From: an uncultured Oscillospiraceae bacterium
Lineage (GTDB): Bacteria; Bacillota; Clostridia; Oscillospirales; Oscillospiraceae
Assembly: GCA_947630755.1 (NCBI GenBank)
Contig: CANRIU010000019.1
Span: forward strand, 1 to 34,295
Direction of reading: 5' to 3'
Length of the DNA stretch: 34,295 nucleotides
Position numbers and translations under genes: made by a program. The notes under the pieces are model-generated. The model made no database searches and was not told the DNA's origin. It was given only the letters and a program-made list of their open reading frames with translations. Positions within the stretch are counted from its first letter, which is position 1. Each line of letters opens with the position of its first letter. Below are positions 2,964 to 34,295 of the stretch, piece by piece.

Positions 2964-4991
2964 TCATTCCGCGTCGCCGGCGGCCTTGGCCTCCTCAATG
3001 ACCTTCTGCTGGACATTCAGAGGCGCCTCGTCATAGCGGACGAACTCAAAGGTGAAGGACCCGCGGCCCTGAGTCATTGAGCGAAGGTCGATGGCATAGG
3101 AGCCCATCTCAGCCATGGGGACCTCGGCCTCAACGACCTGCATTCCGTCCACCACGCTCATGCCCATGGGGCTGCCGCGGCGCTTGGAGAGGTCGGACAT
3201 GATGTCGCCCATGTTGGAGTCGGGAATGGTGACCTTCAGAAGGCCGATGGGCTCCAGAAGGGCGGGGCTGGCGTTGACAAGCTCCTTGAAGGCCAGGTTC
3301 GCGGCCGTCTTAAAGGCCATTTCGGAGGAGTCAACGGGGTGATAGGACCCATCGTAAAGCGTGGCCTTGAGGTAGACCATGGGGTATCCGGCGAGAACGC
3401 CGCGGCCCACGGATTCACGGAGGCCCTTCTCAACCGCGGGGAAGAAGTTTTTCGGGACGGAGCCGCCGAAAACCTCCTCGGCGAAGATGAGGTCCTCGCT
3501 CTCATCCTGGGGCTCGAAGCGAATCCACACGTCGCCGAACTGCCCGTGTCCGCCGGACTGCTTCTTGTGGCGGCCGTGTGCCTCGATCTTTTTGCGTATC
3601 TTCTCCCTGTAGGGGACCTTTGCCGGGTAGAGCTCCACCTCCACGCCGAACTTGTTCTTAAGCTTGGAGCACAGCACGTCAAGCTGCATATCACCCGCGC
3701 CGGAGATGACCATCTGGCGTGTCTCGGCGTTGTTGGAGACGGTGAAGGTCACGTCCTCCTCGCGAAGCCTCGTCAGGCCCTGGGCCACCTTGTCCTCCTG
3801 GCCCTTGGTCTTGGGACGGATGGCCATGGAGTAGCAGGGCGCGTTGAACTCAATGCCGGGCACCGCCTCAACGGCCTTGGGGTCGCAAAGCGTGTCGCCG
3901 GTCTTGGTATCACTGAGCTTGGACACGGCGCCGATGTCGCCGGGGCAGAGCTCCGTCACCTCGATATTCTGCTTGCCGCGCATGGTGTAGATGTGCCCCA
4001 GCTTCTCCTGGGACCCGCTGCGGGCATTGGTGAGGGTCATGTCGGCGCTGACCCTGCCGGACACGACCTTGAAAAGGCTGAATTTTCCGAACTGGTCGGA
4101 GATGGTCTTGTAGACGATGAGCTTGGTGGGGGCGCTGCCGTCGATGGCCTTTCCGCCCTCCCGGGGCGCCGGGAAGAGGTTGATTATATTGTCAAGAAGC
4201 ACCTCGGTGCCAAGGCCCGTGGCGGCGCTGCCGAAAAACACGGGGCAGATCTCCGCCTCGGCGATGCCGATGCCCAGCGCGTCGTAGAGCTCCTTCTCGG
4301 AGAGGTCGCCCTCCTCGAAGTACTTCTCCATCAGCTCCTCGCTTGTTCCCGCGGCGTTCTCCACGAGCTCGGCGTAGTGCTCCTCCACCTTGCCCTCCAG
4401 CTCCGCGGGCATGGGGATCTCCTGGCGCTTGCCGGAGACGAACTTGTACGCCTTCTTCTTGAGCACGTCCACGATGCCAACGACCTTCTCGCCCTCCATG
4501 ACGGGCTCGGTCAGCGCGCAGACGGAGGAGCCGAAGGTGTTGCGCAGGGTGTCAAAGGTCTTCTCGAAGCTTGCGTGCTCCTCATCGACCTTGGAGACAT
4601 AGACCGCCCTCGGGAGATTCCTCTCGTTGACGTATTTCCAGGATTTCTCCGCGCCGACGTTCATCTGGTCCTTGGCGGAAACGCAGATAACGGCTGTGTC
4701 GGCGACTCTCAGCGCCTCAAACACCTCGCCCACGAAGTCAAAGTAACCCGGGGTGTCGATGATATTGATTTTGTGGTTCTTGAACTCGGCGAACATGGTA
4801 GTCGCGGATATACTGGTCTGGCGCTTTATCTCCTCCGCGTCGTAGTCGGAGACGGTGTTGCCGCCGCCCACAGTGCCCTGACGTGTGGTGGCGCCGCAGA
4901 CGAAGAGCATACTCTCCGCCAGAGTGGTCTTGCCGCTCCCGCCGTGACCGAGGAGCGCGATGTTGCGAATGTTTTCAGCAGCGTAGCCCAT
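2964..4991 (-). CDS. Elongation factor G-like GTPase (FusA2-type paralogue)
   Basis: The product is a ~675-residue translation-factor GTPase with the EF-G domain order. It has the P-loop GHGGSGKTTL near the N-terminus, G3 as DTPGYFDF, a G4-like SKVDEE, a beta-barrel domain II, and C-terminal domains III-V ending in the RSMTQGRGSFTFEF region. Canonical EF-G has AHIDAGKTTT, DTPGHVDF and NKMD, so this is the EF-G-like paralogue group rather than the essential FusA. Its precise role on the ribosome is not established. I chose the ATG at 4991 because GAGAGGA (5003-5009) precedes it by 11 bases. The longer frame to 5054 would run into the promoter's -10 box. ATG at 5000 is also possible but sits too close to that ribosome site. 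Confidence 0.88.
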   Translation of the reverse strand: MGYAAENIRNIALLGHGGSGKTTLAESMLFVCGATTRQGTVGGGNTVSDYDAEEIKRQTSISATTMFAEFKNHKINIIDTPGYFDFVGEVFEALRVADTAVICVSAKDQMNVGAEKSWKYVNERNLPRAVYVSKVDEEHASFEKTFDTLRNTFGSSVCALTEPVMEGEKVVGIVDVLKKKAYKFVSGKRQEIPMPAELEGKVEEHYAELVENAAGTSEELMEKYFEEGDLSEKELYDALGIGIAEAEICPVFFGSAATGLGTEVLLDNIINLFPAPREGGKAIDGSAPTKLIVYKTISDQFGKFSLFKVVSGRVSADMTLTNARSGSQEKLGHIYTMRGKQNIEVTELCPGDIGAVSKLSDTKTGDTLCDPKAVEAVPGIEFNAPCYSMAIRPKTKGQEDKVAQGLTRLREEDVTFTVSNNAETRQMVISGAGDMQLDVLCSKLKNKFGVEVELYPAKVPYREKIRKKIEAHGRHKKQSGGHGQFGDVWIRFEPQDESEDLIFAEEVFGGSVPKNFFPAVEKGLRESVGRGVLAGYPMVYLKATLYDGSYHPVDSSEMAFKTAANLAFKELVNASPALLEPIGLLKVTIPDSNMGDIMSDLSKRRGSPMGMSVVDGMQVVEAEVPMAEMGSYAIDLRSMTQGRGSFTFEFVRYDEAPLNVQQKVIEEAKAAGDAE

Positions 4992-5053
4992 AATAATCAT
5001 GATCCTCTCATTAGTTACTTGTTTGGCCTTCACAAAGCCCATGCCAATAAACA

Positions 5054-5082
5054 ATTATAATACGTTTTTCACAAAAACACAA
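5054..5082 (-). promoter_or_regulatory. Sigma-A promoter of the EF-G-like gene
   Basis: On the minus strand TTGTGT (5077-5082) is followed after 17 bases by a perfect TATAAT (5054-5059). A start near 5047 gives a leader of roughly 56 bases. The gene is therefore transcribed separately from the large membrane protein upstream. Confidence 0.7.
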
Positions 5083-20581: not shown

Positions 20582-20615
20582 TTCGACACCCTTTGCATCA
20601 ATAGGCTCGTATAAT
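20582..20615 (+). promoter_or_regulatory. Spo0A-type promoter of spoIIGA-sigE
   Basis: TTCGACA (20582-20588) is an exact 0A box, the reverse complement of TGTCGAA. A perfect TATAAT lies at 20610-20615, 21 bases later. In Bacillus subtilis the spoIIG promoter is known for an over-long (22-base) spacer with a Spo0A box over the -35 region, and this layout is very similar. The start would be near 20622, just before the GGGGTG ribosome site. Confidence 0.68.
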
Positions 20616-20646: not shown

Positions 20647-21486
20647 GTGTATGTTCTTTATGTTGACGAGCTTTTTGTCCAAAATCTGCTCATAGACTAC
20701 CTTCTGCTTCTGGCGACGGCGAAGGTCGCGGGGCTTCCCGCGAAAAGGTCGAGGCTCGCCCTGGCGGCGGTACTGGGCGGGCTTTACGCGGCCTTTGCCG
20801 CCCTCGCCGGGTCCTCGCCCCTGTCGTCCCCGGCGCTGAAGGTGACGGTTGGTCTTTTGATGGTCCTGATCGTCTTTGGCGCTGCGGAGAGGCTTTTGCG
20901 CACGGCGCTTATTTTTCTCGGAGTGTCGGCGGCCTTCGCCGGGGCGGTGATGGCGGCGACACTCGTCCGGGGGGAGGACACGGGGCTTTTGTACCCCGGT
21001 GGCGTGAGCTTTTCGTCGCTCATACTCTCCTTCGCCGGATTTTATGTCCTCTTCTCCGCAGCCTTCCGCTTCACCGCAAGGCGCCGCCTTCGCGGAGAGG
21101 TGGGCCGTCTCACCGTGACCTTCGGCGGAAGGTCCGTCACCGTCAGCGCCCTCGCCGACACGGGCAACGGCCTTCGCGAGCCCGGCACGGGGCTTCCCGT
21201 GGCGGTGTGCTCCCTTGAGTCCCTGTCGCCGCTTTTTGAGAAGGATGTCCTGCGGGTGCTCACGGAACACCCGGACCCCGCCGAGGCTCTTGAGGAGCTG
21301 GGGAGGCTCCAGGTGTACAGCTTCTTCCTCGTGCCCTGCCGCACAGTGGGAAAAAGCGCCGGGATGCTCCTGGCATTTCGCCCCCAGGGGCTTCGCCACG
21401 GCTCCCGGGAGCTCACGGCGCTGGTGGCAATAGACCCCGAGGGGTTAAACGACGCCGCCGGATACTCCGCCATAGTGGGCGTTTAG
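20647..21486 (+). CDS. spoIIGA: Sigma-E processing peptidase SpoIIGA
   Basis: SpoIIGA is a membrane aspartic protease that removes the pro-sequence of sigma-E in the mother cell after a forespore signal. The 279-residue protein has about five transmembrane helices in residues ~8-142. A soluble C-terminal protease domain carries the catalytic Asp171 in [12 protein letters not shown], the usual D-T/S-G motif. The GTG start has GGGGTG about 8 bases upstream. Its substrate gene sigE follows 14 bases later, the standard sporulation pair. Confidence 0.93.
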
Positions 21487-21500
21487 GAGAAAGGAGAGGC

Positions 21501-22217
21501 ATGAAAAGGCTTTTATTCAGATTAATGTCCGCGCTCCGGCTGATCCTCGGTCGGCTCTTCCCGCCGGAGGGCACATATTATCTCGGTGGCGGGGACACCC
21601 TCCCCCCTCCCCTGACAAGGGACGAGGAGCAGGCGATGCTCGCGGAGCTCGCCGATGGCTCGGAGCGGGCAAGGCGCATACTCATAGAGCACAATCTGCG
21701 CCTTGTAGTCTACATCGCAAGGCGCTTTGAGAACACCGGAGTGAATCTGGAGGACCTGACAGGCATCGGCTCCATCGGCCTTATAAAGGCCATAAGCACC
21801 TTTGACGCGGGAAAGAACATCAAGCTTGCCACCTACGCCAGCCGCTGCATCGAAAACGAGATACTTATGTATCTGCGCAAGGTCGCCCAGCAGAAGTCCG
21901 AGGTCTCCCTCTCGGAGCCTCTGAACACCGACTGGGACGGCAACGAGCTCCTGCTGTCGGACATCCTGGGCACCGACAACGACATGGTCATGCGCCCTCT
22001 GGAGGACGACGTGGACAGGCAGCTACTGCGGGAGGCGCTCCTCACTCTCTCGGAGCGGGAAAAAACCATCATATCCCTGCGCTTCGGCCTTGGCGGAAGC
22101 CGCGAGCTCACTCAAAAGGAGGTGGCTGACAGGCTCGGCATATCCCAATCCTACATATCGCGCCTTGAAAAGCGCATAATATCAAGGCTCCGCAGGGATA
22201 TGATCAGGAAAATGTAA
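21501..22217 (+). CDS. sigE: Sporulation sigma factor SigE (pro-sigma-E)
   Basis: The 238-residue product is the mother-cell sigma factor. The first ~20 residues are a hydrophobic-basic pro-sequence ([20 protein letters not shown]) that SpoIIGA would cleave. Region 2 ([40 protein letters not shown]) and region 4 (SLRFGLGG...[24 protein letters not shown]) are clear. AGGAGAAAGGAGAGG precedes the ATG. In Bacillus and many clostridia sigG follows, but here the next gene is a SleB-type hydrolase. Confidence 0.95.
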
Positions 22218-27042: not shown

Positions 27043-28233
27043 TTATTTCTTTAGACCGTACTCCTCCGCAAGGCTCCTGAAGGCCGGGAGGGACCTCATT
27101 ATCATGTCATGGCTTACGCAGTAGGCGATGCGCACATACCCCGGGCAGGCGAAGCTCCTCCCCGGAACCACAAGGATGTTGTGGGCCTTTGCCCTGTCGG
27201 TAAACTCCCCGTCCTCCCCCGGCGTTTTCACCCAGAGGTAGAACGCCCCGGAGGGGTACACGCACTCAAAGCCGCAGTCGGTGAGCCCCTCATAAAGCGC
27301 CCGGCGGTTTTTGTCGTAGGCGGCGATGTCCGTGCTCTCCTCAAGGCACTCCGCCGCCAGCCGCTGCTGGAGGGATGGGGCGTTGACAAAGCCAAGTATC
27401 CTGTTTGCAATGACGGCGGCATCGAAGATGAGCTGCGCGTCGTCGCACTCCGACGGTATCACCACATACCCGATGCGCTCCCCGGGAAGGGAAAGAGACT
27501 TTGACCAGGAGTAGCCCACAAGCGTATTGCGGTAGTAATTGGGAAGCCAGGGCACCTCGGCCCCGTCGTAGACAAGCTCCCTGTATGGCTCGTCGGAGAT
27601 AAGGTATATCGGCGCTCCGAGCCTCCTCTGGGCCTCCTCCAGCACCCCGGCGACAGCGCGGATGGACTCCCCTGTGTAAACCACCCCCGTGGGGTTATTC
27701 GGGTTATTTATTATGACCGCCTTCGTCCTCGGCGTTATGGCGGCGCGAAGCGCCTCCTGGTCTGGCTGGAAGGAGCCGGGCGCGGCCGGAACGGCCTTCA
27801 AAACGCCGTCAAAGTTTGAGACGTAGTTTCCGTACTCCAGAAAATACGGCGCGAACGCCAGCACCTCGTCCCCGGGGTCAAGGAGCGTCTTTAAAAGGAC
27901 ATTGAGCCCCCCCGCGGCGCCCACCGTCATTATAATGTTGCCCTCGCCGTAATCGGTCCCGAAGCGTCGGTTGAGGGACGCGGCGACTCTCGCCCGGACC
28001 TGGGGATAGCCGGAGTTTGACATATACCCGTGAAGCTCCATGGGGTCCGTCTCAGAGGCTATGCGGATGATCTCGCTTCTCACCCGCTCCGGCGAGGGGA
28101 TGTTCGGGTTGCCAAGGGAGAAGTCAAAGACGTTCTCCCGCCCGTAGAGCGCGGCAAGGCGCGCTCCCTCCTCGAACATGGCGCGGATAGCGCTCCCGTT
28201 TTTCGTCATTTGAAGCATTTTTCCGGAAATCAT
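27043..28233 (-). CDS. PLP-dependent class I/II aminotransferase
   Basis: The 396-residue fold-type I aminotransferase is of the aspartate/aromatic type. FSLGNPNIPSP, INNPNNPTGVVYTGE and ISDEPYRELVYDG bracket the cofactor site. YSWSKSLSLPGERIGY holds the PLP-binding lysine, and CPGYVRIAYCVS has the substrate-carboxylate Arg. The exact amino-acid substrate cannot be read from the motifs. GGAGG precedes ATG 28233 by 7 bases. It opens the operon with trpS and tagO. Confidence 0.9.
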   Translation of the reverse strand: MISGKMLQMTKNGSAIRAMFEEGARLAALYGRENVFDFSLGNPNIPSPERVRSEIIRIASETDPMELHGYMSNSGYPQVRARVAASLNRRFGTDYGEGNIIMTVGAAGGLNVLLKTLLDPGDEVLAFAPYFLEYGNYVSNFDGVLKAVPAAPGSFQPDQEALRAAITPRTKAVIINNPNNPTGVVYTGESIRAVAGVLEEAQRRLGAPIYLISDEPYRELVYDGAEVPWLPNYYRNTLVGYSWSKSLSLPGERIGYVVIPSECDDAQLIFDAAVIANRILGFVNAPSLQQRLAAECLEESTDIAAYDKNRRALYEGLTDCGFECVYPSGAFYLWVKTPGEDGEFTDRAKAHNILVVPGRSFACPGYVRIAYCVSHDMIMRSLPAFRSLAEEYGLKK

Positions 28234-28265
28234 CTCTCCGCCTCCAAATCAACACAATTACGGGT

Positions 28266-28294
28266 ATTATATCACGGTGCAGAGGATAATTCAA
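28266..28294 (-). promoter_or_regulatory. Sigma-A promoter of the aminotransferase-trpS-tagO operon
   Basis: On the minus strand TTGAAT (28289-28294) and a perfect TATAAT (28266-28271) are 17 bases apart. The start is near 28259, about 25 bases before the ATG. Confidence 0.8.
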
Positions 28295-28367
28295 TAAAAA
28301 CTCAAAAAATTCCGCACCCGTCACATTTTCCGGCGGATAAGGGCTTAATCTTTCATTTTTTCCCATG

Positions 28368-28394
28368 TGTACAGGGGCCGCGCCTGCATATAAT
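28368..28394 (+). promoter_or_regulatory. Candidate promoter for a structured RNA
   Basis: TGTACA (28368-28373) and a perfect TATAAT (28389-28394) are separated by 15 bases, shorter than ideal. A start near 28400 would coincide with the first base of the RNA's closing stem. Confidence 0.5.
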
Positions 28395-28399
28395 ACCTC

Positions 28400-28532
28400 A
28401 AGACGCGGCGGTCCTCAATAAGACCGGTGCCGAGAGGCGAATGGTCAAGGACCCGAAGGGAGGACCCTCTTCTGGTGAGAGGGCATCTCCCAAAGCGTCT
28501 TTAAATAAACGGGGGGCCGCAGGGCCCCCCGT
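28400..28532 (+). ncRNA. Candidate structured non-coding RNA with its own terminator
   Basis: A ~100-base segment is closed by AAGACGC (28400-28406) pairing with GCGTCTT (28495-28501). Inside are GGTC/GACC (28410-28413 with 28422-28425), a GNRA-capped GCC-GAGA-GGC hairpin (28429-28438), and a two-part helix GGGAG + CCCTCT / AGAGGG + CTCCC (28458-28491). A GC-rich hairpin ACGGGGGGCC / GGCCCCCCGT (28509-28532) follows with a broken U-tract, as a terminator. There is a TATAAT box just before and no convincing protein frame. It could be a free small RNA or, if read through, a leader of the regulator gene 150 bases on. It matched no RNA family I can recall. It is the main content of the 28234-28681 gap. 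Confidence 0.5.
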
Positions 28533-28681
28533 TTCAGCTTTCTTTGTTTTTTCCCTGCTTTGTGCCCGCTGATACCGAAATGATGCCGAAAGTTTATCGT
28601 TTCTTAATTTATTCTCCCCTTTTATATTAAGAGAAAAAAATGTATAATAGGGCTACTCACAAAGGCAAAGGCGGTGTTTTG

Positions 28682-29377
28682 ATGTACAACATACTTATCT
28701 GCGATGACGACCGGGACATAGTCTCGGCGCTGAGGATATATCTCTCCGGGGAGGGCTACGGCATACTTGAGGCCCACACCGGGCAGGAGGCGCTGGACTT
28801 AGTCCGGGACAACGAGGTGCACCTCATACTTATGGACATAATGATGCCGGAGATGGACGGTATTTCCGCAACGTCAAAGCTCCGGGAGGAGTACAACATA
28901 CCAATCATCCTCCTGACAGCCAAGGGCGAGGACACGGACAAGGTCCTGGGGCTGGGCGTGGGCGCGGACGACTATGTGACGAAGCCCTTCAACCCCGTGG
29001 AGGTCATCGCCCGGGTCAAAAGCCAGCTTCGCCGCTACACGATGCTGGGCGGCATGGAGCGCAAGCCCGACCACATCGTCCTCGGGGGCATTGACCTTGA
29101 CGACGCGGGAAAGAGCGTCACAGTGGACGGCGAGCCCGTGAGCCTCACGCCAACGGAGTTTTCCATACTGAGGCTGCTGATGCAAAACCCGGGGAAGGTT
29201 TTCTCCTCCTCAGCGATATACTCCCATGTCTCCGGCGGGATGGCCCTCTCGGCGGAGAGCTCCGTGGCGGTGCACATAAGGCATCTTCGCGAGAAGATAG
29301 AGATCGTCCCCTCTGAGCCCAGATACATAAAGGTCGTCTGGGGGCAGGGGTACAAATTTGAGGGTGAACTGAAATGA
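28682..29377 (+). CDS. OmpR/PhoB-family response regulator
   Basis: The 231-residue regulator has a receiver domain (CDDDRD acidic pocket, phospho-acceptor Asp52 in LILMDIMMPEMDG, Lys in YVTKPF). A winged-helix DNA-binding domain ends ...HIRHLREKIE...YIKVVWGQGYKFEG. In organisation it resembles VanR-type regulators. The ATG at 28682 has GGCGGTG 5 bases upstream. A TATAAT box at 28643-28648 precedes it, without a clear -35. It overlaps the kinase gene by four bases (ATGA), so the two form a cognate two-component system. The signal is unknown. Confidence 0.93.
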   Translation: MYNILICDDDRDIVSALRIYLSGEGYGILEAHTGQEALDLVRDNEVHLILMDIMMPEMDGISATSKLREEYNIPIILLTAKGEDTDKVLGLGVGADDYVTKPFNPVEVIARVKSQLRRYTMLGGMERKPDHIVLGGIDLDDAGKSVTVDGEPVSLTPTEFSILRLLMQNPGKVFSSSAIYSHVSGGMALSAESSVAVHIRHLREKIEIVPSEPRYIKVVWGQGYKFEGELK

Positions 29378-31035
29378 AAAAGCTCACATACTGCTTCCCG
29401 GTAAAGCTCGCCGCGGTGTTCCTGCTGGTATTCTCCGCCCTGGGCACCGGAGTCTTTGCCATGGCGATTATAGTGGACTACGCCCTGGGCTTCTACCGCG
29501 TCTCCGTCTACGCCACGCTGGAGAGCGCCATTGAGTACCTTGGGGATAACGGCATAGGGCACCTGGGGTCAGGCGAGATATACCTCATCCGGGACAACTA
29601 TATGCTGTTCAACACACTCATTGAGATAAGGTACGCCGCCATTGCCCTCTCCATAGTATTTCTCATAGTATCCATTCTTCTCTTCATCTACCTCATGTGC
29701 GCCGCCGGGCGCAGGCCGGGGAGCGATACGATAGCACTCAGTATGTTCGACAGGATCCCCTTCGACCTCACGCTGTGCCTTGCGGGCTTTGTACTGTTTA
29801 TATTATTCCAGATGGCCTACGAGATGGGCTACGTCTGGATCCGGGACGACCCGGTGATATACTTTATCTTTGTCGCCGTCATCGGTGTTGTGATGCTCCT
29901 TGTGGCGCTGTGGGTGTTCTACACCTTTGCCGCCCGGGCCAAGGCGGGGAAATGGTGGCGCAACACGGTGATCTTCTTTGTGCTGAGCAGGGTCTTTAAA
30001 TGGCTGCGTTCCTTTTTCCGGTTCATGGTCAGGATGTATCACGCCGTACGCCTGGAGTGGCGCGTCGCCATTGCCGTCGTGGGCATGGCCTTTCTCAGCC
30101 TCATCTCCCTCCTGTTTGCCGACAGCAACAGGGACGAGGCGTCGGCAGCGATTTTCTTTCTCCAGTACGGCGCGGCCTTTGCCGTGCTCGTATTCAGCGC
30201 CTACCAGTTCCGCCTCCTCCGCTCCGCCGGGGAGAAGCTTGCCGCCGGGGAGCTGGAGTACAAGGTGGATACCTCTAAAATGTACTTTGACTTCCGCCTG
30301 CACGGGGAGGACCTCAATTCTATCGGCGAGGGCATGAGCGCCGCTGTGGAACAGCGTATGCGTTCCGAGCGTCTTAAGACCGAGCTCATAACGAATGTCT
30401 CCCATGACATAAAGACCCCTCTCACCTCCATTGTCAACTATGTGGACCTTCTCCGCAAGGACCACTCTCCCGAGGAGGAGGCGCAGTATCTGGATGTCTT
30501 AAAGCGCCAGTCCGACAAGCTTCGCAGGCTCACCGTGGACCTGGTGGAGGCCAGCAAGGCCAGCACCGGGAACCTGCCCACGGAGCTCGTCCCCACAAAC
30601 ACGCTGGAGCTCATAAATCAGGCAGTGGCGGAGTACGCCGACAGGTTCGAGCAGGGGCAGCTTGAGCCCGTGATAACCTCCCCGGAAAAGCCCGTGACGG
30701 TCCTCGCCGACGGGCGGCACCTGTGGCGGGTGCTGGATAACCTCTTCAACAACGCCATAAAATACGCCCAGCCCGGCACCCGCGTCTACATCGACGTGCG
30801 GCGGCTTGACGGCGGGGCGCTCATATCGGTAAAAAACATATCCCGCGAGAGGCTCAATGTCTCCTCCGACGAGCTCATGGAGCGCTTCGTCCGTGGGGAC
30901 GAGAGCCGGCACACCGAGGGCTCGGGCCTTGGACTGAGCATAGCCAGGAGCCTCACGGAGCTCATGGGCGGGTCCTTCGACATCGTAATCGACGGGGACC
31001 TGTTCAAGGCGGAAATACGGCTGAAGCTTGTCTGA
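29374..31035 (+). CDS. Membrane sensor histidine kinase
   Basis: The 553-residue kinase has about six transmembrane helices in residues ~10-300, including a small extracytoplasmic part after the first helix (~35-85). A linker follows, then the HisKA domain with the phosphorylated His in NVSHDIKTPLTSI and the ATPase domain with NLFNNAIKYA (N box) and GSGLGLSIARSL (G box). Multi-helix sensing regions of this kind are typical of kinases that respond to envelope stress or peptide antibiotics. It is encoded with the response regulator before it and a C39-like peptidase after it. Confidence 0.93.
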   Translation: MKKLTYCFPVKLAAVFLLVFSALGTGVFAMAIIVDYALGFYRVSVYATLESAIEYLGDNGIGHLGSGEIYLIRDNYMLFNTLIEIRYAAIALSIVFLIVSILLFIYLMCAAGRRPGSDTIALSMFDRIPFDLTLCLAGFVLFILFQMAYEMGYVWIRDDPVIYFIFVAVIGVVMLLVALWVFYTFAARAKAGKWWRNTVIFFVLSRVFKWLRSFFRFMVRMYHAVRLEWRVAIAVVGMAFLSLISLLFADSNRDEASAAIFFLQYGAAFAVLVFSAYQFRLLRSAGEKLAAGELEYKVDTSKMYFDFRLHGEDLNSIGEGMSAAVEQRMRSERLKTELITNVSHDIKTPLTSIVNYVDLLRKDHSPEEEAQYLDVLKRQSDKLRRLTVDLVEASKASTGNLPTELVPTNTLELINQAVAEYADRFEQGQLEPVITSPEKPVTVLADGRHLWRVLDNLFNNAIKYAQPGTRVYIDVRRLDGGALISVKNISRERLNVSSDELMERFVRGDESRHTEGSGLGLSIARSLTELMGGSFDIVIDGDLFKAEIRLKLV

Positions 31036-31072
31036 CGGCCCGGAGGACAGCGCTCTACTAAAGGTGGTTTTC

Positions 31073-31840
31073 ATGGAAACAAAGCAGAAAAAACATATTG
31101 GGCTTATAATATTACTCCTGTTCCTGGCGTTGGCGCTCCTCGCCTTCTCCCTATTCGGAGGATTTGAGAGCCTCAAAAAGCTCTACCGCCAGCTTAAGTC
31201 CTTCGACTACATCGACGACGAGGAGCTCCGGGAGGCCTTTGAGGAGATGTCCAAAAATAACCCGGATGCGGAGGCGTTCTGCGACAACTTCAAAGGCATC
31301 ACGGATTACGACCTGACATTGGATGTCAGCGAGGACGATGCCTTCCGCGCCGGAGACCCCGTCCCCTACTTCACCCAGTGGGACGCCAGGTGGGGCTACT
31401 GCAAATACAGCTCCGGCCTTATCGGCTGGACGGGCTGCGGCCCCACGGCTCTGAGCATGGTGGCTATGGGCCTTACAGGCGACGGTACTCTGACCCCGGC
31501 GTACATGGCGGACCTCTCCTCCCGGGAGGGCTACTGCGTCAAGGGCTCCGGCACGAGCTGGACCTTCTTCACCGAGGGCGCGGCGCCTGTGGGCCTCACC
31601 GCCAGGGAGCTGCCGCTGTGGGAGGCGACAATGCGCAGTGAACTCGAGGCGGGACACCCCATCATCTGCGTCATGGGTCCGGGCTACTTCACCACAACGG
31701 GACACTACATAGTCCTCACCGGCTGTGACGAGGAGGGCTTCTTCGTCCTCGACCCCTTCCGCCCCTCCAACAACAGGACATACAGCTACGATGAGCTGTC
31801 GCCGGAGATAAAAAATCTCTGGTCCTACTCCCTTAAGTGA
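31073..31840 (+). CDS. Membrane-anchored C39-like cysteine peptidase
   Basis: The 255-residue product has an N-terminal membrane anchor (~8-29) and a charged helical spacer to ~95. The Peptidase_C39_2-type domain has the catalytic Cys in GWTGCGPTALSM, the His in TTGHYIVLTG and the Asp in FVLDPF. Such domains cleave peptides or act on the cell surface; the target is unknown. I chose ATG 31073, which has AAAGGTGG 5-6 bases upstream. The longer frame from 31028 overlaps the kinase and has no better site. It lies close behind the kinase, so it is probably part of the same response system. Confidence 0.82.
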   Translation: METKQKKHIGLIILLLFLALALLAFSLFGGFESLKKLYRQLKSFDYIDDEELREAFEEMSKNNPDAEAFCDNFKGITDYDLTLDVSEDDAFRAGDPVPYFTQWDARWGYCKYSSGLIGWTGCGPTALSMVAMGLTGDGTLTPAYMADLSSREGYCVKGSGTSWTFFTEGAAPVGLTARELPLWEATMRSELEAGHPIICVMGPGYFTTTGHYIVLTGCDEEGFFVLDPFRPSNNRTYSYDELSPEIKNLWSYSLK

Positions 31841-31853
31841 GAGAAAAAGGCGC

Positions 31854-31896
31854 TGTTGAATTTTGTCGAATTAAGTCTAAACCACAATATGTTGAA
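31854..31896 (+). promoter_or_regulatory. Cluster of three 0A-like boxes
   Basis: TGTTGAA (31854-31860), an exact TGTCGAA 0A box (31864-31870) and TGTTGAA (31890-31896) lie upstream of the spo0A-like gene. The first two are spaced by one helical turn (10 bases), as in tandem Spo0A sites. The two TGTTGAA sites each have one mismatch. Confidence 0.5.
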
Positions 31897-31965
31897 TAAT
31901 CTTTAAAAAAGGCCACAAAAGTTCAAAAATTATTTATTCCGATTTCCTGTTTTTTCTTGCATTCC

Positions 31966-31996
31966 TTGACGGATTGTGGTATTTTCTGTCTATAAA
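31966..31996 (+). promoter_or_regulatory. Candidate promoter of the spo0A-like gene
   Basis: TTGACG (31966-31971) is followed by TCTATAAAT. The -10 is either TCTATA (17-base spacer) or TATAAA at 31991-31996 (19-base spacer). It lies ~70 bases downstream of the third 0A-like box and just before the ribosome site. Confidence 0.5.
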
Positions 31997-32021
31997 TCAA
32001 TGTTTTCAGGGGTGAATCGGA

Positions 32022-32774
32022 ATGAAAAAGTTCTTTAGCGTATTACTGGCTGAGGGAGACGCTGAGTTACGTCAGACGCTTGCGGAGCTTATCGGCGGGG
32101 AAGACGATTTGAACGTTCCTGCCTGTGTCGGCTCCGGCGCCGAGGCACTCCGTCTCATTGACGAGCTGCGTCCCGACATTCTTGTCACAGGTCTGTACCT
32201 CACGGACATGGACGGGCTGGGGCTTCTGGAGAGGACGGCGTCACTCCCGGAGGCCGCAAGGCCGATAATGCTCATGGTCTCGCCTGTCTCAACTCCGCTG
32301 ACCCTCCGCGCGGTTTCGGTGCTTGGGGCATCCTATTATGTGATGGACCCCCTCTCCGCACCCGGGCTGGTGTCCCGCCTGAGGCTCCTCGCGGGGATGG
32401 TGTCAGCGGGCCACGAGGATGAGGAGATCCTTCTGATGATAGATGAGCTTCTCTATGAGCTTTGCGTACCCGCGAACCTGTCGGGCTGCAAGTACCTCCG
32501 GGAGGGCATAGCCGTGGCCTACTTTCGCCCGTCGTCCCTTGACGCGGTGACGAAGCTCCTTTACCCCGAGATCGCCCGGCGCACAGGCTCCACGCCCGAG
32601 AGGGTGGAGCGGTCCATCCGCTGCGCCGTGGACGCGGTGTGGAAGCGCGGCGGCTCCGAGCCGATAAGAAAGCTCATAGGCCCCTACCTGCGTGGAAGAC
32701 CGACCAACGGAGAGCTTATAGCGGCAGCGGCCCGCGAGCTTCGCCGGAGGGTGTCCAGAAACAGCGCAATTTGA
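32022..32774 (+). CDS. Spo0A-family regulator with degenerate receiver domain
   Basis: The 250-residue product has both Spo0A domains. The DNA-binding C-domain (~135-245) is clear: LLYELCVPANLSGCKYLREGI, TKLLYPEIARR, PERVERSIRCAVDAVWKRG and RPTNGELIA parallel B. subtilis Spo0A. The N-terminal receiver aligns without gaps over its first ~65 residues, but the acidic pair is Glu11-Gly12 and the phospho-Asp position is Gly57 (LVTGLYLTDMDG). The signalling Thr is Met85 and the Lys is Asp109. It should not accept phosphate by the normal mechanism. Spo0A is the master switch for sporulation. This may be a paralogue or a phosphorylation-independent version. Upstream 0A-like boxes suggest it is under Spo0A-type control. 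Confidence 0.85.
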   Translation: MKKFFSVLLAEGDAELRQTLAELIGGEDDLNVPACVGSGAEALRLIDELRPDILVTGLYLTDMDGLGLLERTASLPEAARPIMLMVSPVSTPLTLRAVSVLGASYYVMDPLSAPGLVSRLRLLAGMVSAGHEDEEILLMIDELLYELCVPANLSGCKYLREGIAVAYFRPSSLDAVTKLLYPEIARRTGSTPERVERSIRCAVDAVWKRGGSEPIRKLIGPYLRGRPTNGELIAAAARELRRRVSRNSAI

Positions 32775-32784
32775 TTTAATACTA

Positions 32785-32936
32785 TTCCCAGATAAAAATT
32801 GATATTTTTATCTGGGAAGGCTGTGCTACGCACAGCCCATTTAAGCGCTGAAAGCGCTTAAATGACGTCTCATACAAAACCTGACGCGCCTTCGGCGCTA
32901 TAAAAAGTGCTTTGCACTTTTTAACAGGTTTTAGTA
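32785..32936. repeat. Cluster of consecutive hairpins
   Basis: Five tight palindromes follow one another. They are TTCCCAGATAAAAAT / its complement (32785-32818), GGCTGTGC-TAC-GCACAGCC (32819-32837), ATTTAAGCGCT-GAA-AGCGCTTAAAT (32839-32863), GCGCC-TTC-GGCGC (~32886-32898) and AAAAAGTGC-TTT-GCACTTTTT (32902-32922). AAAACCTG / CAGGTTTT (about 32877-32884 with 32925-32932), extended by ATAC / GTAT, encloses the last two, giving a multi-branched element. The first hairpin can end the spo0A-like transcript. The rest is not explained by a gene. With the following ~200 bases, which show no convincing gene, this fills 32775-33144. Confidence 0.8.
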
Positions 32937-33056
32937 TAAAAACCGCGTTGAAAACCACACAAAAAAGCAGGCCCGCCTTAATGACGGGTGCCCGTAAGAA
33001 AGTTTTGAGGCCAAAATTATAATTACGGCATCTGTCCAGGCTGGATTGGGACAAGC

Positions 33057-33104
33057 AAAAAGCGCGGAGTATCAGGGAATCCCCCGGTACTCCGTGCTTT
33101 ACTT
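33057..33104 (-). terminator. Terminator of the TIR/NDT-like gene
   Basis: The stem AAAGCGCGGAGTA / TACTCCGTGCTTT has one non-Watson-Crick pair and is followed on the minus strand by TTTTTGCTT. It lies ~45 bases beyond the stop of the minus-strand gene at 33145. Confidence 0.65.
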
Positions 33105-33144
33105 TGTAATGAATCGAACTATCACACGATCTTGAATGTAGTGA

Positions 33145-34194
33145 TTAACCTATTATGGCTTTTATCCATTCAGACAGCTTTTTTGTAAGATCATTATGGT
33201 CATCCCAAACAAGTGTCTGCTTTTGTGCAACATCAAAATGCGGCTTTAAGTATTTTGCGTAAGGGCTAACTTCTTTGGCGGTATAATCTTTTGTAAAAAC
33301 TTCCTTGCTACAAGAGATAATAACTTCTTTCCCAAGCCCAAGCGCATAGCCTGCTTCATAATAGGCACCGTAATTGGGGTCAGTTATATCAAGAATCAAG
33401 AAACGACTTTCACGGATGAGGCGAAGCATTTCGGGTACAATTTGATGATTATGAATGATTTCGTCGATAAATTCCGGGGAATAGCCTGCTTCAACAATTC
33501 CTGCTCTTATAGCTTCTCTTGTTGCATCTGTTCCGGGATTAAATGCCATTGAAACGAAAACTTTTTTGTTATTGTCATCACTACGCTGTAAGTCATCTAT
33601 CCGTTTCCAGCCCTCTGCCAAAAGTGTTATACGAACATCCGTATTCCCAAATCCGAAAGTTGCATAGTCATTTCTTTTTAGATATTCTGTTACAGCCGCT
33701 ATTTGTTGGTGCATCTGTTCTTCATTCATTTGCTCTCCATTTTTGCCTATACGTTTAATGAACATCGCACTTATTAACTCGTTTTTGGTGAGGTTAATTG
33801 CATTTCCCCAAAAACCAGCGAGTGTAGCAAACCCTAACAATATTTTAGAAATACGCTCAGCAAATGTATGAGGATAAAACGCACGGATTTCTTCTTCACT
33901 TATATACCTTACCGAATGATGCTGCGCATAGTGATTATCATAGTACGATTTATCGCCCATAAAGCTCATATAGCCGTCAAACTTTTCGTGAAATGCTTCA
34001 TTACCGGCATAGAACAAGAAGGATGCCGTTTCATCCTTCAAATTATCCATTGCGTTAGTTGGATAAACTTTTTGCACATAATGTCCACAAGTTGAACATT
34101 CGCAAATATGATACACATAATCCTTGCTTGGCTGAACATTCATTTCAGAACCACAAAATGGGCATATAATTTTCTTTGTTTCCAAGTAAAACAC
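33145..34194 (-). CDS. Zinc-ribbon, winged-helix-like, TIR/nucleoside-deoxyribosyltransferase-like protein (putative defence)
   Basis: The 349-residue protein starts with a zinc ribbon (CPFCG...CSTCG, ~11-37). A helical middle follows, ending in a winged-helix-like stretch (RITLLAEGWKRIDDL, ~188-202). The C-terminal domain (~211-300) resembles the TIR/NDT superfamily: VFVSMAFNPGTD, the Ser/Arg-rich LIRESRFLILDITD strand and NYGAYYEAGYALGLGKEV, with a candidate catalytic Glu280. Related domains cleave nucleosides or NAD, and this architecture is frequent near defence genes. That role is inferred. The gene is far more AT-rich than its neighbours and probably transferred. The start is GTG 34194, or TTG 34185, which has AGGTAGGTG upstream. 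Confidence 0.75.
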   Translation of the reverse strand: MFYLETKKIICPFCGSEMNVQPSKDYVYHICECSTCGHYVQKVYPTNAMDNLKDETASFLFYAGNEAFHEKFDGYMSFMGDKSYYDNHYAQHHSVRYISEEEIRAFYPHTFAERISKILLGFATLAGFWGNAINLTKNELISAMFIKRIGKNGEQMNEEQMHQQIAAVTEYLKRNDYATFGFGNTDVRITLLAEGWKRIDDLQRSDDNNKKVFVSMAFNPGTDATREAIRAGIVEAGYSPEFIDEIIHNHQIVPEMLRLIRESRFLILDITDPNYGAYYEAGYALGLGKEVIISCSKEVFTKDYTAKEVSPYAKYLKPHFDVAQKQTLVWDDHNDLTKKLSEWIKAIIG

Positions 34195-34209
34195 CTACCT
34201 TTCCTGTCA

Positions 34210-34295
34210 CTAAGCATTCCGCAAGCTCTTATAAATCTCCTCTGTGAAAATCCCCAGCACCTGCTTCTTAACATCATCGTTGCTGAGCAGCATGG
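34210..34295 (-). CDS. C-terminal end of an unidentified gene (cut by window edge)
   Basis: Only the last ~28 codons are present (...SNDDVKKQVLGIFTEEIYKSLRNA, ending TAG). It runs on the same strand 15 bases before the TIR/NDT-like gene, so the two are probably one operon. The helical, charged tail is not diagnostic. I considered a restriction-enzyme subunit or helicase, but nothing visible proves it. Confidence 0.6.
   Translation of the reverse strand, partial: MLLSNDDVKKQVLGIFTEEIYKSLRNA

Follow-up and report, generated by a model that had tools for sequence, protein, structure and literature searches.

In bacilli and clostridia, sporulation starts with the phosphorylation of a conserved aspartate of Spo0A, as sections of PMC3533761 and PMC11210211 describe. 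Pseudo-receivers are nevertheless common among receiver domains, and glutamate is the commonest substitute for the aspartate, according to passages of PMC4395418 and PMC12632262; an Asp-to-Glu exchange alone is often insufficient to activate, with Spo0A among the examples named in PMC4395418. By the definitions given in excerpts of PMC12632262, a pseudo-receiver lacks at least one of the five phosphorylation residues and an aspartate-less receiver (ALR) lacks the phospho-Asp itself, while the same excerpts accept either acid at the first site of the acidic pair and serine at the threonine site as normal. ChxR and RitR are ALR/pseudo-receiver regulators of this sort. In addition, the Spo0A homologues carried by phages are effector domains without a receiver, as reported in part of PMC10294663.

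The window analysed here, the whole stretch of 34,295 nucleotides, belongs to a genome of 2.19 Mb in 98 contigs (89% complete) and carries on its + strand an accessory Spo0A paralogue that we call spo0A2 (32022-32774). Its frame of 250 residues is intact and shares with the Spo0A of B. subtilis and Clostridia the order of a receiver followed by Spo0A_C. Both Pfam matches lie above their cut-offs (Response_reg, E 2.8e-9; Spo0A_C, E 3.5e-26), whereas the score of 152.3 bits against NCBIfam spore_0_A falls below the equivalog cut-off of 200 bits. The pseudo-receiver domain was placed at 32040-32381 (+ strand) by the Pfam match and alignments. Since it aligns to B. subtilis Spo0A (PDB 9phz) throughout residues 6 to 127, a frameshift in the receiver, which the preliminary description had named as one way in which its reading could fail, is unlikely.

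In the alignment with B. subtilis Spo0A, D10 corresponds to Glu11, D11 to Gly12, D56 to Gly57 (codon GGT, 32190-32192), T86 to Ser87 and K108 to Asp109, so that the five sites read EGGSD in spo0A2 and DDDTK in B. subtilis. The preliminary description had called spo0A2 a Spo0A homologue without the phospho-Asp, with Glu-Gly as its acidic pair, Gly57 and Asp109, and our alignment and domain matches agree on each of these points. It had also placed Met85 at the threonine site, where the pairwise alignment to PDB 9phz and the multiple alignment both put Ser87, and had taken every phosphorylation residue to be replaced. Because Glu11 and Ser87 rank as normal residues in the excerpts of PMC12632262, only three of the five are lost, namely the second acid (Gly12), the phospho-Asp (Gly57) and the lysine (Asp109). 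The protein has no phosphorylatable Spo0A site and fits both the pseudo-receiver and the ALR definitions, and at the level of sequence its receiver is without the residues needed for phosphoryl uptake. Like ChxR and RitR, spo0A2 thus lacks the phospho-Asp and, if active, would work without Asp phosphorylation. Its DNA-binding domain would likewise be freed from phosphorylation control, as in the phage-borne homologues that part of PMC10294663 describes; unlike them, it keeps a degenerate receiver and is not effector-only.

The Spo0A_C DNA-binding domain of spo0A2 (32439-32741, + strand) keeps 31 and has lost 21 of the 52 near-invariant columns, which we defined by at least 95% conservation across 210 main Spo0As. 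The stretch RVERSIRCAVDAVW is largely kept, and within the features shared with Spo0A stands R-V-E-R-x-I-R; we take RVER.IR and RVERSIRCAVDAVW to be the recognition helix that reads 0A boxes. Three residues are deleted at B. subtilis FGYTVSMTKAKP, and the loop FGYTVS..KGKP of main Spo0As is shortened and reads IGPYLR---GRP, with IGPYLR in place of FGYTVS. The earlier statement that the whole DNA-binding domain is retained therefore holds for part of the domain, including RVER.IR, and fails at the deletion and the loop. The altered C-terminal loop presumably falls in the region of the sigma-A activating surface known from work on B. subtilis; our literature search found no paper on the sigma-A contact surface of Spo0A. 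The domain would be expected to bind 0A-like boxes, but this binding may be altered or lost, since only 31 of the 52 near-invariant columns remain.

These features bear on the reading of spo0A2 as a constitutive activator, whose degenerate receiver would no longer inhibit the DNA-binding domain and would leave part of the regulon on whenever the gene is expressed. A receiver without its chemistry next to a conserved RVER.IR would suit such a protein, as would the phage homologues, whose effector domain alone is proposed in part of PMC10294663 to need none of the usual host signals. However, the receiver domain of spo0A2 can still be recognised (Pfam E 2.8e-9), and the change in FGYTV..KGKP runs contrary to normal activation. 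We regard a constitutive activator as rather unlikely.

We then compared spo0A2 with its relatives. Spo0A_C matches occur in 33 of the 34 genomes of the window's genus, at one to six per genome. Among the full-length relatives read, the nearest is L040 of genome G018 (40% identity, residues GASSR), and the two pair within a loose accessory set at an SH-aLRT value of 86, which is not strong. The phospho-Asp site of L040 is serine, while the main Spo0A of the same genome has aspartate; orthologues with the normal aspartate, which the preliminary description had listed as contrary evidence, are thus not represented by the nearest relative. A scan of named genomes gave relatives with no more than 33% identity along most of the length. 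The neighbours of the two genes differ, the G018 gene adjoining a RadC-like gene. Contig C44 of G018 (L329, 1-1140 and 4876-6492) carries two pairs of a Spo0A-like gene and a following RadC-like gene, one found by scan and the other by eye, and the edge of contig C41 holds a third, closely similar Spo0A_C end.

Among the 29 full-length accessory copies read in the order (more exist), 14 are without the phospho-Asp and four have all five residues. In genus g2 (G034 and G115), the main copy carries Glu56 (L206 and L203, respectively) and a divergent accessory copy (L319, L320) has an intact site, a pattern compatible with a possible swap of main and accessory roles. Genes with Spo0A_C and without a receiver were found in relatives as well (L042, L044). 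A further receiver-less example, L047 (G014:C16), continues in frame into a recombinase-like C-terminal region, as judged by eye, and has apparently been interrupted by a mobile element. On contig C3 of G015 (L336), a Spo0A-like gene (L049, residues DRTGK) stands between fusA-like and amylase-like genes; the window has homologues of both flanks (EF-G-like, 2964-5054; amylase-like, 1387-2688), with a gap of 275 bp between them.

A phage or plasmid origin of spo0A2 found no support: the 13 phage and seven plasmid records that matched were all below 60% identity, and viral contigs scanned with short exact patterns contained no relative of spo0A2. One of the 13 phage records was examined (H1 = L382, MT836771.1, labelled 'Bacteriophage sp.'). 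Its Spo0A shares 99% identity with the main copy of genome G127; the scaffold is therefore probably of bacterial origin, which calls for caution over claims of a full-length phage Spo0A.

A decaying duplicate without present function would account for the long branch of spo0A2 (1.3 changes per column), for the 21 lost DNA-binding columns and for the many and varied accessory forms across the genus. Yet the frame of 250 residues is intact with both domains recognisable, and a similar relative persists in G018, apparently in several copies. On this balance we consider decay improbable, the least probable of the readings of spo0A2 that we weighed.

We next turn to the sequence 5' of the gene, where the preliminary description had placed three 0A boxes, two of them a helical turn apart. 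Three 0A-box-like sites are indeed present on the + strand: an exact box TGTCGAA (31864-31870), about 150 bp 5' of the start codon, and two copies of TGTTGAA with one mismatch each, at 31854-31860, which starts 10 bp before the exact box, and at 31890-31896 in the same intergenic stretch. In dinucleotide shuffles of this 181-bp stretch, at least one exact box has a p of 0.03 and three sites at up to one mismatch a p of 0.038. Exact boxes are, however, in excess over the whole window (nine on both strands against 3.2 expected; three of 100 shuffles reach nine), so the boxes upstream of spo0A2 are suggestive only. Single exact boxes also occur 5' of spoIIGA (20582-20588, - strand; p 0.016 for the 176 bp 5' of that gene) and within 300 bp 5' of the main spo0A (p 0.037). 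L040 has no exact 0A box within 500 bp 5', and a promoter scan of the + strand 5' of spo0A2 gave no match. Because 0A-box-like sites precede the gene, spo0A2 is probably regulated by Spo0A-family proteins, and a feedback loop of the family on spo0A2 is plausible.

Elsewhere in the window, the + strand carries spoIIGA (20647-21486; NCBIfam TIGR02854, E 2.2e-39, 135.6 bits, below the 209.55-bit cut-off) and the sporulation sigma factor gene sigE (21501-22217; PRK08301 and TIGR02835, above cut-offs), and a SleB-like gene is also present with a match below the curated cut-off. Directly 3' of the spo0A2 stop codon, at 32785-32923, lies a row of short perfect hairpins, with arms of 15, 8, 12 and 10 nt at 32785-32818, 32819-32837, 32838-32864 and 32901-32923, respectively; Rfam gave no match in 28000-34295. 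Close to the contig end (33000-34295), GC drops from about 52-64% to about 38-40%, and this low-GC end, which holds a 349-residue gene with weak deoxyribosyltransferase-like and Lar-like matches, is possibly recently acquired DNA.

Left of spo0A2, at 28640-31840, are genes for an OmpR-type regulator, a histidine kinase and a C39-like peptidase, none of them phage-like. These neighbours, together with the divergent DNA-binding domain, are what one would expect if spo0A2 had taken on a new function outside sporulation, reading a changed DNA site and sensing a ligand or partner through its pseudo-receiver; a tie to the adjacent two-component system and C39-like gene would be one example. Pseudo-receiver regulators in other bacteria can work without phosphorylation, as passages of PMC12632262 and PMC4395418 describe. 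Against this reading, 181 bp with 0A-box-like sites of their own lie between spo0A2 and the C39 gene, and no OmpR-type regulator, histidine kinase or C39-like neighbour was found around L040 in the 12 kb of G018:C44 searched. We consider a new function of this kind unlikely.

By a narrow balance of probability, we instead favour spo0A2 as an accessory Spo0A controlled by its amount, acting as a competitor or modulator in an order whose phosphorylation site is eroded. Given a receiver without phosphoryl-accepting residues, its activity would depend on the level of the protein and on its contacts with other proteins instead of on a kinase. It would occupy some 0A boxes or pair with the main Spo0A, as a competitor or modulator in a feedback loop. 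The background is an order in which the five-residue site of the main Spo0A is partly eroded in most genomes read, whereas the DNA-binding domain is kept, as is much of the sporulation programme. That the net effect is antagonistic has somewhat less than an even chance; beyond constitutive activation, the remainder falls to other effects or to a decaying gene.

The preliminary description had supposed that, if spo0A2 were the only Spo0A of the genome, sporulation would be controlled without the phosphorelay, and had suggested looking for a second, canonical spo0A. Two Spo0A_C genes are in fact present, on contigs C70 (157.5 bits) and C19 (spo0A2, 94.1 bits), and the better conserved copy on C70 excludes spo0A2 as the sole Spo0A. 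This main Spo0A is not canonical either: its five sites read DAESK, with glutamate for the phospho-Asp and alanine for the second acid. Neither Spo0A found would thus be activatable through the aspartate, since the main copy has glutamate and spo0A2 glycine. This assembly, 89% complete, yielded no phosphorylatable Spo0A, and a third copy may lie in the part that is missing. The idea of sporulation controlled without Spo0A phosphorylation consequently survives on the glutamate of the main copy, although the reason first given for it, a single Spo0A, was wrong. The genome also contains SpoIVA, a SASP and a SpoIIE-family gene.

To place this main copy, we read the main Spo0As of 182 genomes of the window's order and of 68 genomes from other parts of its phylum. 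Counted against the genomes that had a match, these are 32 of the 33 from the genus, 101 of 108 further family members sampled and 49 of 51 sampled from the order's other families, and outside the order 68 of 69. Many of the assemblies are fragmented drafts and probably MAGs. Uncounted were G028, G159, G181 and G245 (partial at a contig edge or short in frame) and G142, as well as G040, G066, G114, G117, G126 and G133, which had no high-scoring Spo0A copy. The phospho-site in the order is Asp in 139, Glu in 30, Asn in eight, Ser in one and Gly in one, and three receivers are wholly degenerate, so that 43 of 182 main Spo0As have either another residue at this site or a degenerate receiver. In contrast, outside the order 66 of 67 readable main Spo0As have Asp. 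All five residues are intact in just 14 of 180 readable copies in the order, compared with 62 of 66 outside (two rows gapped at a focal site omitted from each set). The residue most often lost is the second acid (155 of 180), a direct metal ligand according to part of PMC12632262, and the lysine is kept in 165 of 179 (the three degenerate receivers omitted). Forms without the aspartate occur in 11 of 21 families and, among the 76 genera of the window's family, in 11; G003-G005 are members of the window's own genus.

On an IQ-TREE tree, inferred from 204 rows with the five focal columns removed and seven long-branch or degenerate rows omitted, we counted 21 changes between Asp and non-Asp states; shuffling the labels 200 times gave a mean of 36.9 and a minimum of 31. 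A FastTree tree of all 211 rows likewise gave 21. With fewer changes than in any shuffle, the state of the site is partly inherited and partly recurrent. Change counts alone cannot separate gain from loss; every outside row with a letter at the phospho-site on the IQ-TREE tree has Asp. By the same tree, glutamate arises four times within the window's genus, at modest support values, and G000 (Glu) pairs with G018 (Asp) at a support of 84. Two plasmid-labelled records come from named species. The Spo0A of Subdoligranulum variabile reads ELDGK and is nearest to the order's families f21 and f8, which would suit Oscillospirales as the probable identity of the order. The spo0A of Monoglobus pectinilyticus (L381, NZ_OY725742.1, annotated beside spoIVB) reads DFDSK; this species stands in a separate order in the NCBI taxonomy, outside Oscillospiraceae, and since it has lost the second acid, erosion of the site may reach beyond the window's order.

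The two domains of the main Spo0As differ sharply in conservation. Within the order (125 rows, a single one for each genus in the family plus all rows from other families), mean pairwise identity is 31% for the receiver and 74% for the DNA-binding domain, compared with 51% and 65% outside (68 rows). At a matched DNA-binding identity of 75-85%, receiver identity is 35.0% within the order, compared with 55.5% outside. Judged from these alignments, constraint in the order is displaced from the receiver to the DNA-binding domain. In the extreme, the copies of G003-G005 have a receiver almost without signature residues, and the copy in G005 keeps 51 of the 52 near-invariant DNA-binding columns.

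In Bacillus, the small phosphatase Spo0E inactivates Spo0A, and in C. difficile Spo0E represses sporulation, as described in part of PMC11115286. In a chosen subset of genomes, the Spo0E Pfam family was found in none of 54 from the order, with Asp and non-Asp forms alike, and in 22 of 26 outside; the family model has 42 positions, and divergence past detection is possible. Four of the 26 outside genomes have an intact site and also lack Spo0E, so its absence is no proof of lost phosphorylation. In keeping with this, passages of PMC3533761 note that some clostridia with phosphorylated Spo0A have no clear Spo0E orthologue.

Phosphorylation may persist in much of the order, since 139 of 182 main Spo0As have the Asp and 165 of 179 have the Lys. 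At its strongest, this becomes the reading that phosphorylation runs without the second acid and that the Glu56 forms are merely locked on, which is compatible with any of the readings of spo0A2. The loss of that direct metal ligand in 155 of 180 copies speaks against it, as do the poor conservation of receivers at matched DNA-binding divergence and the missing Spo0E in all 54 order genomes. We find it doubtful, though of appreciable probability.

Sporulation markers were checked in 80 genomes, 43 without and 37 with the phospho-Asp in the main Spo0A. SpoIVA was matched in 41 of 43 and 36 of 37, respectively; for the SpoIIE family the counts are 41 of 43 and 37 of 37. Every SpoIIE-family match is below the curated cut-off, some being weak and some spanning just the phosphatase end. 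SASP was matched in 33 of the 43 genomes that lack the aspartate, compared with 36 of the 37 that have it (Fisher p 0.009, with shared descent ignored), and all three markers together in 31 of 43 and 35 of 37. Judged by gene content, genomes without the aspartate mostly still appear to sporulate, and some may be losing sporulation; the scarcer SASP weakens the notion that all of them are spore-competent. The cleanest case of sporulation genes beside a non-Asp Spo0A appears to be G033 (97% complete), in which a single Spo0A was found, with Glu56, and SpoIVA, SASP and the SpoIIE family were all matched.

Taken together, we tentatively propose, at a little short of even probability, that Spo0A has repeatedly been uncoupled from Asp phosphorylation across the order. 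The main copy would then be a pseudo-receiver protein set by its amount, partners or ligands, with glutamate recurrent and Spo0E gone, and accessory ALR Spo0As, spo0A2 among them, would make up a new regulatory layer acting at the same boxes. The main Spo0As of the order share the loss pattern of the ALR class, with the second acid lost most and Glu commonest, as passages of PMC4395418 and PMC12632262 describe. They differ in that the output is Spo0A_C and that the main developmental master regulator is included across most of the order. Pseudo-receivers and receiver-less phage Spo0A are already known. A search of open-licence texts, in which absence is unprovable, found no report of phosphorylation-site loss in Spo0A across a clade, nor of such a loss in the main copy throughout an order, and PMC12632262 contains no word beginning with Spo0.

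If strains without the aspartate do sporulate, another input must start sporulation. The question of the trigger would then become directly testable on one protein, as in G033 with the single Spo0A found there, and spo0A2 would offer a natural, receiver-dead possible competitor to test.
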